Assembly: GCA_028715605.1 (NCBI GenBank)
Contig: JAQURM010000004.1
Span: 1-64,000, forward strand
Direction of reading: 5' to 3'
Origin: Desulfovibrionales bacterium
GTDB lineage: Bacteria; Desulfobacterota; QYQD01
DNA length: 64,000 nucleotides
The notes beneath the pieces were generated by a model. The model searched no databases and was not told the origin of the DNA. It saw nothing but the letters and a program-made list of their open reading frames with translations. This document shows, in pieces, positions 3,312-13,134 of the stretch; position 1 is the first letter of the stretch, and each line of letters begins with the position of its first letter. The position numbers and the translations under genes are program-made.

Positions 3312-3565
3312 TGTCTTATCCTTAACATCGCCCCGTGCTGGATCAATTCTTCATCTCACGCCTTCGAATAAGAGTTTTTACGGCGCGAAGCCGCCCTTAA
3401 AAAGTATAGTTAAACTGAACCGCGCACGCCACGTTGTTATTTGGAAATTTATCGGCTCAGTATAGCTGTATTGTTTGATTTTATAGCAGGAATTGATCGA
3501 TATTCCAAGATGAAACGTTGTAGGTATGTTGTGGGTATGTAATTTAGGATGTCCCCCATGCCCTG

Positions 3566-3739
3566 CAATACCTTATCTATTTTCCCTTAAACGTATTACA
3601 CGAAGGTCCGTGGGAGTTAACGTAGTTTGAACGGTTCTGCCGGTATCCTTTCCGAAATAATCAAATGCTGCCACCAACAGATAATCCATCACGCTTCTAA
3701 GGTCGCGGCTCTCTCCCTCGCTCACAGTGTCGCCCGCCC
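3566..3739 (-). pseudogene. Duplicated 3' end of the DUF4136 lipoprotein gene
   Basis: These 174 bases align without gaps to 4543-4716, the last ~55 codons and stop of the lipoprotein gene at 4550-5191, with 13 mismatches by eye (about 92.5% identity), all but one of them transitions. Homology stops abruptly at 3739, where group II intron sequence begins, so this copy lacks a start, signal peptide and most of the domain. The stretch 3312-3565 before it shows nothing recognisable. Confidence 0.88.
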
Positions 3740-3858
3740 GTAGGTGAACATCTATTATCCAGCTACGGCCCGATAGGCTTCATGAACCGCCTAGTCCGCC
3801 GCAGGCGGATGCCAGGTGGTGTGGGGACCAGGGGAGAGAAGCCCCCGGGTACCCCGAT
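3740..3858 (+). mobile_element. Group II intron remnant: domains V-VI and 3' end
   Basis: Domain V is visible at 3786-3820: a lower stem ACCGCCT/AGGTGGT, an upper stem TCCGCC/GGCGGA around GCA, and a short bulge on the 3' side. Domain VI follows (3823-3855): GGGG and CCCC close a hairpin with an unpaired A at 3851. That A lies eight bases from the end of the element, which finishes in GAT at 3858; a bulged A seven or eight bases from a terminal AY is the hallmark of a group II 3' end. Domains I-IV and the reverse transcriptase are missing. The upstream bases 3740-3785 are probably the end of domain IV. Confidence 0.78.
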
Positions 3859-4139
3859 TAAGGCTTCTTTTTTGGGTCTTGTCTATTGTCAAATACAGAA
3901 TGTATTATAATTGCATTATGTTCAATCGTATAAAATATAGAAAAAGGGAATCTTCTTATCGGGCACCCACGAAAACACGAATATCGAATTTGGTATATCT
4001 CCGGATAATGAATAATGTTTTGCAAGGCGGCCTCTACACAATTCAGAAACTCAAAGCCAAGTCCCCTCCGTTGTCTTTCATACCAAGCAAAAGCTAATTC
4101 GACATCATCTTTTGACCTGTCAGTATAACGAAGCTTCAT
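3858..4139 (-). CDS. RelE/ParE family toxin
   Basis: The 93-residue product has the RelE/ParE plasmid-stabilisation pattern: YTDRSKDDVELAFAWYE with an N-terminal helix pair, GLGFEFLNCVEAALQNI, then a strand series ending RRFPFSIFYTIEHNAIIIHSVFDNRQDP. Such toxins act on ribosome-bound mRNA or on gyrase; the subgroup cannot be told from sequence alone. It overlaps the upstream antitoxin gene by four bases. Its stop codon (3858-3860) touches the last base of the group II intron remnant, so the last few residues may have been altered by that junction. Confidence 0.85.
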   Translation of the reverse strand: MKLRYTDRSKDDVELAFAWYERQRRGLGFEFLNCVEAALQNIIHYPEIYQIRYSCFRGCPIRRFPFSIFYTIEHNAIIIHSVFDNRQDPKKKP

Positions 4140-4363
4140 TTGTATTTATTCCTTATTCCCTCGTGAACTGACTGCCAATCATGAAGATTTTGTTCGCCGG
4201 CTTTGTATTGGCTATATCTTTTATCAAGTTCTCGTTTTTGCCATTCAGGCATCGGGAGCTCTGAGTTACTTTGGGCGATAGAATCCCAGATATCTTCTAT
4301 CAGCAATAATTTTTCCGAAAGATTTAATTTTTTTATTTCTTGCTTAATTTCGTCGGGTCTCAT
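4136..4363 (-). CDS. Addiction module antitoxin (unstable antitoxin family, PF09720-like)
   Basis: The 75-residue product fits the short antitoxins that pair with RelE/ParE toxins: an N-terminal helix LSEKLLLIEDIWDSIA, the LPMPEWQKRELDKR block (about residues 36-49), and a charged C-terminal helix. The gene precedes the toxin with ATGA overlap, the usual order for this family. A palindrome at 4413-4427 lies about 50 bases upstream. The pair sits between a broken copy and the intact copy of the DUF4136 lipoprotein gene, so it was probably brought in by rearrangement. Confidence 0.85.
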   Translation of the reverse strand: MRPDEIKQEIKKLNLSEKLLLIEDIWDSIAQSNSELPMPEWQKRELDKRYSQYKAGEQNLHDWQSVHEGIRNKYK

Positions 4364-4412
4364 TTTGAAATCTCCCTATGTCTTTTATGTTATTCATATC
4401 ACCATTAAGTCT

Positions 4413-4427
4413 TAACATTGCATGTTA
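4413..4427. promoter_or_regulatory. Palindrome upstream of RelE-type module
   Basis: TAACAT-TGC-ATGTTA is a perfect 6+3+6 inverted repeat about 50 bases before the antitoxin start. It could be the operator used for autoregulation. This rests on position only. Confidence 0.35.
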
Positions 4428-4494
4428 GCTGTCGACTGCCTTTTTTCATAGTCATAGAGAAAAAAGAGGGTGGCGTCAAGCACAAAAGGGGGGA

Positions 4495-4520
4495 GAAATG
4501 CGCTCGCTATGCATGTTCAA
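4495..4520. repeat. Dispersed repeat with core ATGCGCTCGCTATGCATG
   Basis: The same ~25-bp unit recurs at 7447-7473 (with two changes) and, as an inverted pair, inside 21947-22275. Here it lies just after the end of the DUF4136 lipoprotein gene. Confidence 0.75.
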
Positions 4521-4549
4521 CGCAGTCAATACGTGTCCCGCACAACACC

Positions 4550-5191
4550 TTATCTGTTTTCCCTTAAACGTATTACGCGAGGGTCCGTGGGAGCTAACGT
4601 AGTTTGAACAGTTCTGCCGGTATCCTTTCCGAAATAATCAAATGTTGTCACCAGTAGATAATCTATCACGATTCTAAGGTCACGGCTCTCTCCCTCGCTC
4701 ACAGTGTCGCCCGCCCAGACTACCTCCGTTTGACCGGATTCACGTAGTTTATGGGCATCTATCACTCTTATTGATAATGACCGGGTAAGATACTGAATGG
4801 AATAAGGTTCATACCTGTATACAGTTTCATAATACCACGTCTTTGAATAAGGATCATAGGCTCTGATGTCTTGAGGTCTCGAAATAAATCCTGTATACAA
4901 AGGGCCTCGACCTATCCCATACCGAAAGACAAGGTGAAAGTCCGCATCCTCAGCCGGGGAAAGTGGATAACCCTTTTTTTTGAGCAGCCGGGCTATTTTT
5001 GACGCCACCTCTCTTTCAAGGAGAGGGTTGTCGGCTTCCGGGCTCTGTACTACAAATATTGTCTTGCCGGGGACCAGAGATGGAGGGCGTGCCGGATCCA
5101 AATAGCCGGTTACATCGATGCGGTAGGTAGCGCAGCTTGTGGCCCCAAGAATCAGACCAACGAAAAGGAAAAATTTAAGTAGAAATCTCAT
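4550..5191 (-). CDS. DUF4136-type outer-membrane lipoprotein
   Basis: Starting at the ATG at 5191, the product is 213 residues with a lipoprotein signal (MRFLLKFFLFVGLILGATSC, lipid-acceptor Cys20). A purine-rich ribosome site (AGAGGGA) stands just upstream, so the longer frame to 5233 is unlikely. The mature part resembles DUF4136: an early strand (TIFVVQSPEADNP), a helix over REVASKIARLLKKKGY, and a long strand pair containing DADFHLVFRYGIG. Members are anchored envelope proteins of unknown function. It closes a minus-strand run that includes two other lipoproteins and the glycyl radical enzyme genes. Its last 55 codons are duplicated at 3566-3739. Confidence 0.7.
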   Translation of the reverse strand: MRFLLKFFLFVGLILGATSCATYRIDVTGYLDPARPPSLVPGKTIFVVQSPEADNPLLEREVASKIARLLKKKGYPLSPAEDADFHLVFRYGIGRGPLYTGFISRPQDIRAYDPYSKTWYYETVYRYEPYSIQYLTRSLSIRVIDAHKLRESGQTEVVWAGDTVSEGESRDLRIVIDYLLVTTFDYFGKDTGRTVQTTLAPTDPRVIRLRENR

Positions 5192-5295
5192 AGGGAATCC
5201 CTCTGCCCGGACTAAGTCCTCATGCCTCGTCAAACCGGATCAGATGCCCCCAGGGACCCTTCGCCAACAAACCCCTGAAGAACCCTTTTTCATCT

Positions 5296-12815: not shown

Positions 12816-13134
12816 GGCCGATCCCTCCTTTCGGACATTTTACGCCTAAAAGTTTCGCGTGTCTATTAACTTTTTCTTCTACCTCACGTTCGCTCCCGTA
12901 CCCCGAGATAGAAAAAATTTTTTCGCTTAAGTAAGTCCTCCCATTAGCCGAAAAGCCATAATAAAGCATTAGAAATGTAAGACTGCTGGATAGGCAGGAA
13001 CATGCACATGCATAAGGCATTATGAAGTTGCGTGGCGAAATAGGCGTCCACCATCTTGACGAACTATATGAGCGCCTGTCGAAGATGCGCTGGGGCGTGA
13101 AGGATGGGTTTGGGGGGGTGTTATTGGTCCGGGC
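12816..13134. other. Gap of about 300 bases without a supported gene
   Basis: The stretch holds a 38-codon open frame (13022-13138, plus strand, starting MKLRGEIGVHHLDELYERL) that could be a small gene or a gene remnant, and one copy of the 19-bp microrepeat within that frame. No other structure is evident. Confidence 0.4.
13079..13097. repeat. 19-bp microrepeat copy 3 (inverted)
   Basis: Reverse complement of CGCCCCGGCGCATCTTCGA with one mismatch; lies in the gap before the small gene at 13203. Confidence 0.7.

Follow-up and report, generated by a model that had tools for sequence, protein, structure and literature searches.

Why does the stop codon of a toxin gene touch the last base of a group II intron, and how did this intron come to be fused to a second copy of the end of a neighbouring host gene? 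The question is raised by a locus in the window, i.e. the whole stretch of 64,000 nucleotides analysed here (contig JAQURM010000004.1 of the Desulfovibrionales assembly GCA_028715605.1). The reading that we favour, with a probability of about 0.82, is that positions 3740–3858 are a dead, 5'-truncated intron of the IIC-attC type, which abuts the stop codon of a ParE/Unstab_antitox cassette standing singly behind a DUF4136 gene. Directly shown are the identity and the orientation of the intron, a placement rule that holds across the genus and, within this genus, both an integron integrase and one clear attC target.

The toxin gene (3858–4139, minus strand) encodes a ParE-type protein (ParE_toxin, PF05016, 31.2 bits) and overlaps the gene of the antitoxin (Unstab_antitox, TIGR02574; 4136–4363, minus strand; PF09720, 55.3 bits). 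Both matches are above the cut-off, and the two genes are predicted to form a type II toxin-antitoxin pair of the ParE/Unstab_antitox kind. The intron tail ends at about position 3858 (CCCGAT/T) and the toxin stop codon occupies 3858–3860, so that the third base of the TAA is supplied by the last base of the intron. The contact between a RelE/ParE-type toxin stop codon and an intron 3' end, described in an earlier note on this DNA, is therefore real.

The tail (3740–3858, plus strand) is recognizable from several features. It begins with a remnant of the C-terminus of an IEP (3744–3776, plus strand), which reads VNIYYPATAR followed by a stop codon; relatives have a longer IEP end, WLKEQGLVSIKKLWVNIHYPATAR, before domain V, and the remnant is homologous, by eye, to the C-terminal end of the intact IEP of a Klebsiella class 1 integron intron (L129). 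Next comes a domain V-like helix (3786–3820, plus strand), the apex of which is replaced by TCCGCCGCAGGCGGA, and then a helix resembling domain VI, which has a bulged A and carries the intron 3' end CCCGAT (3822–3858, plus strand), the boundary being the same as that given by RF00029 on the relative L017. The expected features of domains V and VI are present in the window copy, with one A.C mismatch and the altered apex. The 5' end and domains I–IV, which relatives carry, are missing as a result of the truncation at 3740.

The covariance-model check proposed in the earlier note gave a divided answer. No Rfam group II model matches the window, even at E-values up to 10. On the other hand, a lineage model (R1, 26 pairs), built from 11 relatives with the window copy left out, finds 3784–3859 at 62 bits (E = 1.4e-12), which is its sole significant match in the window, the second-best scoring 8.2 bits. 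Five of the R1 pairs, three of them in the lower stem of domain V, show changes on both sides that preserve pairing, and the triad-like G.U pair is kept. Judged by its sequence and repetition in the genome and the genus, 3740–3858 is thus a 5'-truncated group II intron end. Since the copy itself has no Rfam match while L017 passes three models (RF01998, RF02001 and RF00029, i.e. D1D4-1, D1D4-3 and Intron_gpII), it is a decayed relic rather than a working intron, and no present function is expected of it.

The own assembly has no match to the GIIM maturase model, and the class was therefore assigned from the tail, the boundaries, the target and the IEP remnants; on these, the intron resembles IIC-attC introns. 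The GIIM matches found in three other genomes of the genus (G001–G003) are not accompanied by this intron tail in a motif search. The short IEP remnant of the window was matched by no Pfam or NCBIfam model. The IEPs of this intron family, which are present in the genus as remnants only, are matched in tblastn by the IEPs encoded on Methylocalor and Thiothrix plasmids; the window tail alone has no plasmid match, and the plasmid kinship comes from L017.

In many decayed copies, a palindrome of the form TCCGCC(2–3 nt)GGCGGA stands in place of the domain V apex or of a nearby intron stem (3795–3809 in the window; also L004, L006, L007, L016, L035, L040 and L050), a pattern that would be expected had the apex or stem been invaded or converted by a short palindromic repeat.

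The earlier note had suggested a search for full-length introns. In the own genome, a search with 3740–3880 finds seven other places, three of which span the whole element, and the near-full-length relative is L017, in the sister genome G004: it measures about 814 nt, with its IEP gene reduced to two ends. G004 holds L017 (G004:C6) and a second near-full-length intron, L028 (G004:C1), which is 97.7% identical to it, sits at a different site and has an IEP gene likewise reduced to its two ends; these two introns probably moved in trans. Two insertion sites (L107 in G002:C3, L108 in G000:C3 and L116 in G004:C13; L074, L117 and L118) are each common to three species, so these insertions are older than the species splits. 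A common 5' breakpoint of the window copy, L002 and L003 at GTAGG was considered and rejected as an artefact of the query start.

The comparison set consists of five genomes of the genus, and searches at the level of the genus, the family, the order and the class returned the same five. R1 locates 29 tails in them. For each, the opposite strand was examined for an ORF (85 aa or longer) with the intron 3' end lying −5 to +45 bp from its stop codon. This arrangement is found for 22 of the 29 tails (18 of 25 when orthologous sites are merged), compared to 4.9% of control positions in the same loci; for the other seven tails, no antisense stop codon falls within this range. The window copy follows the rule, being opposite to the cassette gene and at its 3' end. 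The tail-bearing genes are diverse, and three of them, including that of the window, are ParE toxins according to Pfam. The contact between intron and stop codon is thus the normal insertion rule of this kind of intron, which agrees with one proposal of the earlier note, that the 3' end of the toxin gene was the target. Its other proposal, that intron and toxin module arrived together, is not supported: many unrelated genes have a member of this intron family in antisense at their 3' ends, and at two further ParE modules a tail lies at the stop codon with no duplicated gene end.

What does the intron recognize? IIC-attC introns target the bottom strand of attC sites at TTGT/T, in the orientation opposite to the cassette gene (PMC7923331). 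Seven copies of the family retain their 5' end, and all seven are preceded by a foldable sequence, a few bases before the junction. When compared to 60-nt shuffles, four of the seven 5' exons are more stable than 97% of the shuffled sequences and two are at about 91–92%, while that of L102 is no better than chance. Several exon junctions read TTGT/T. When the flanks of L017 are joined, the empty site consists of GAAGCCCAAC, GAATA, a stem and GTTAGGCTTC, which is a textbook attC with its R and L boxes. It is the sole textbook attC among the seven 5' exons, the other six being attC-like or terminator-like hairpins. The placement rule is a measured one, and the attC target is demonstrated here for one copy and otherwise taken from the literature on this kind of intron.

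Insertion behind intrinsic terminators is also known for group IIC introns (PMC4424553), and the family could be a plain group IIC one that targets ordinary terminator hairpins, in which case the toxin-antitoxin pair would be a chromosomal module that was never an integron cassette. The six 5' exons that are not textbook attC sites would fit this explanation, as would the surroundings of the window pair, which is not embedded in an attC array: an attC scan of the window found nothing above shuffles, and nothing around the pair. In the window copy, the hairpin side and the TTGT/T junction were lost by truncation. We consider the terminator explanation unlikely, since L017 lies in a textbook attC, several junctions have the TTGT/T form, and the tails are antisense to the gene, as are IIC-attC introns. 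The host also has an integron integrase. The gene is complete (G000:C4:185504–186439, 376.8 bits for a cut-off of 265) and lies on the same contig as the window pair, about 181 kb away, with attC candidates behind neighbouring genes. Similarly, on G001:C112, an integrase remnant stands beside an antitoxin-ParE pair, which is followed by the same intron tail.

The integron itself (L086, 7499–13003, i.e. G000:C4:185.5–191 kb) comprises the integrase gene and cassette-like genes, and in one of its attC candidates (12915–13003) all seven R-box pairs are present.

The favoured explanation, a cassette bearing an intron relic, would proceed as follows. The ParE/Unstab_antitox pair would have arrived as a cassette, and what remained of its attC is now gone. 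The intron would have reverse-spliced into the bottom strand of the attC hairpin at TTGT/T, opposite to the cassette gene; because the attC directly follows the stop codon of that gene, the intron 3' end would abut it. The cassette attC, split by the intron, would then have lost its far side. A further illegitimate event, distinct from the insertion, would have linked the 174-bp gene fragment to the truncated intron; an exchange with a cassette-free allele is one example. Our best reading of the pair is an integron-type cassette that stands alone and whose attC contains the relic of an intron.

The gene fragment is one half of a direct repeat of 174 nt (3566–3739 and 4543–4716, 977 bp apart), whose similarity far exceeds the chance level. 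The identity of 92.5% (13 differences) given by the earlier note was confirmed, as was the exact succession of the copy, up to 3739, and the sequence derived from the intron, from 3740 on. Copy b (4543–4716, minus strand) belongs to the intact DUF4136 lipoprotein gene (4550–5233, minus strand, with a start possibly at 5194), of which it forms the 3' end; the orthologue of this gene in G004 is 95% identical; a search of named genomes with the DUF4136 protein found no match. Copy a (3566–3739, minus strand) is the duplicated 3' end, fused to the truncated intron. The repeated segment corresponds to the last 167 bases of the gene, stop codon included, and seven bases beyond; these seven bases, GGTRTTG, are common to the two copies, which then diverge.

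Copy a differs from copy b by 12 transitions and 1 transversion. The count in the earlier note was correct, and the bias that it called odd is not: between the orthologous flanks of G000 and G004 there are 85 transitions and 25 transversions, and at least 12 transitions among 13 differences are expected with p = 0.17, which is not significant. A special transition bias was thus rejected, the pattern being ordinary for the lineage.

Among the intron tails of the five genomes, a duplicated gene end is seen at no other locus, and it is absent from the two further ParE modules whose stop codon adjoins a tail. The layout and the duplication are therefore separable, which goes part of the way to the refutation that the earlier note had named, the same layout in relatives with no duplication. 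The duplication is an event distinct from the intron-toxin arrangement. Over 168 aligned bases, copies a and b differ at 12 positions, copy a and the G004 orthologue at 10, and copy b and the G004 orthologue at 8. Since the three are about equally distant, either the copies separated at about the time of the species split, the duplication then being old, or one of them was imported.

Three origins can be envisaged. An illegitimate exchange may have joined a cassette-bearing chromosome, broken in the intron at 3740, to a somewhat divergent, cassette-free allele, broken at 4716, which would have brought in the native gene end together with the native downstream sequence. This single step would account for the exact abutment of copy a and the intron as well as for the different sequences that follow GGTRTTG in each copy, and the distance between a and b is of the same size as those to G004. 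A heptamer, CCAGACT, is found near both breakpoints (the intron-side sequence being taken from L017), a weak hint at end joining. However, a cassette-free allele with the flank seen at 3565 was not found: on the orthologous G004 contig (G004:C17), 290 bp follow the gene before the contig ends, and this downstream sequence differs from that of the window. We rate this exchange somewhat below an even chance.

The equal distances would also suit a local duplication of the gene end that is about as old as the G000/G004 split, the cassette and the intron having been inserted, or truncated, between the two copies at a later time. The changes in copy a (four that alter an amino acid and three silent) are those of a decaying copy. 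Such a history needs the truncation point to coincide by chance with the end of the copy, and G004 shows no trace of the duplication within its contig; it seems possible, if rather doubtful. Finally, the reverse transcription of the intron may have halted early and the cDNA end been extended on the neighbouring gene as template, so that the intron itself made the duplication. The truncation point is indeed the exact junction with the gene copy, and 5'-truncated copies are frequent in this family, but no other tail locus has a duplicated gene end, and copy a is as far from b as from another species, with no sign of recent copying. We regard this origin as quite improbable. The same low likelihood applies to the idea that an incompletely inserting attC-targeting intron joined a piece of the neighbouring host gene to the cassette end, as a natural trace of the cassette-making role proposed for such introns. 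The duplicated fragment may be a trace of a gene rearrangement linked to the intron.

At the corresponding spot behind the DUF4136 orthologue of G004 (L013, 6187–6473, G004:C17), one can read a DUF2283-like gene and the truncated end of a DUF4258-like one, a toxin-antitoxin-like content unlike that of the window.

Three dispersed repeats lie in the surroundings. A repeat of about 80 nt (4414–4493, minus strand) lies upstream of the antitoxin gene and is a candidate promoter; its copies (L021, L024, L025, L029, L033, L034, L038 and L039) are 85–93% identical, occur in several genomes of the genus and are often directly upstream of start codons on the minus strand of the repeat. They share an invariant TTGACG, 17 nt and TATGAC, and an inverted repeat made of a T-run and an A-run. 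A consensus promoter scan did not score it; from its sequence, this repeat is a candidate mobile promoter or regulatory element. A 24-nt repeat, ATGCGCTCGCTATGCATGTTCAAC (4497–4520, plus strand), has many near-exact copies in every genome of the genus. Beyond copy a, where the flank at 3565 and below reads TTGCAGGGCATGG, a repeat of about 164 nt (3365–3528, plus strand) has copies at L073, L121, L122 and L124–L127, several within about 1 kb of intron tails; it has a sharp left boundary, often AAC followed by GAATAAGAG, and a hairpin formed by TTTTTACGG and CCGTAAAAA.

IIC-attC introns and their proposed role in cassette formation have already been described (PMC7923331, PMC4424553), and the locus is ordinary in kind, as the relic of an attC-targeting intron on a probable toxin-antitoxin cassette. 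What is new is the host and the copy number: some thirty attC-targeting introns, most of them decayed, are found outside clinical integrons, in a bacterial lineage that has been little sampled. Where the attC of a lone, former integron cassette has decayed, the antisense position at a stop codon offers an inexpensive sequence marker for it.

The closest likeness is to the IIC-attC introns of the S.ma.I2 type, such as that of the Klebsiella integron (L129), which has the ends GTACGCCC and CCCGAT and an intact IEP and lies in the same orientation behind a cassette gene. The window family shares with them the boundaries (GTACGCCC to CCCGAT/T), TTGT/T-type exons at several junctions, a similar IEP C-terminus, the antisense position at the 3' end of a cassette gene and domains V–VI, which in L017 are about 87% identical over the last 73 nt. 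In contrast, the window copy is 5'-truncated, has no IEP and has a palindrome at the apex of domain V, and the copies in the genus are scattered singly, in a host class represented by five genomes in the collection. Similarly truncated ends (domains V–VI) have been reported in toxin-antitoxin operon cassettes of a CALIN of Halorhodospira halochloris, H.ha.F1 and H.ha.F2, next to attC-like hairpins (PMC7923331); these were described as group IIB with class E proteins, whereas the window family resembles IIC-attC introns. Compared to lone integron cassettes and CALINs, the window pair lacks an intact attC alongside; like them, it is a single toxin-antitoxin pair behind a host gene, with an attC-targeting intron.
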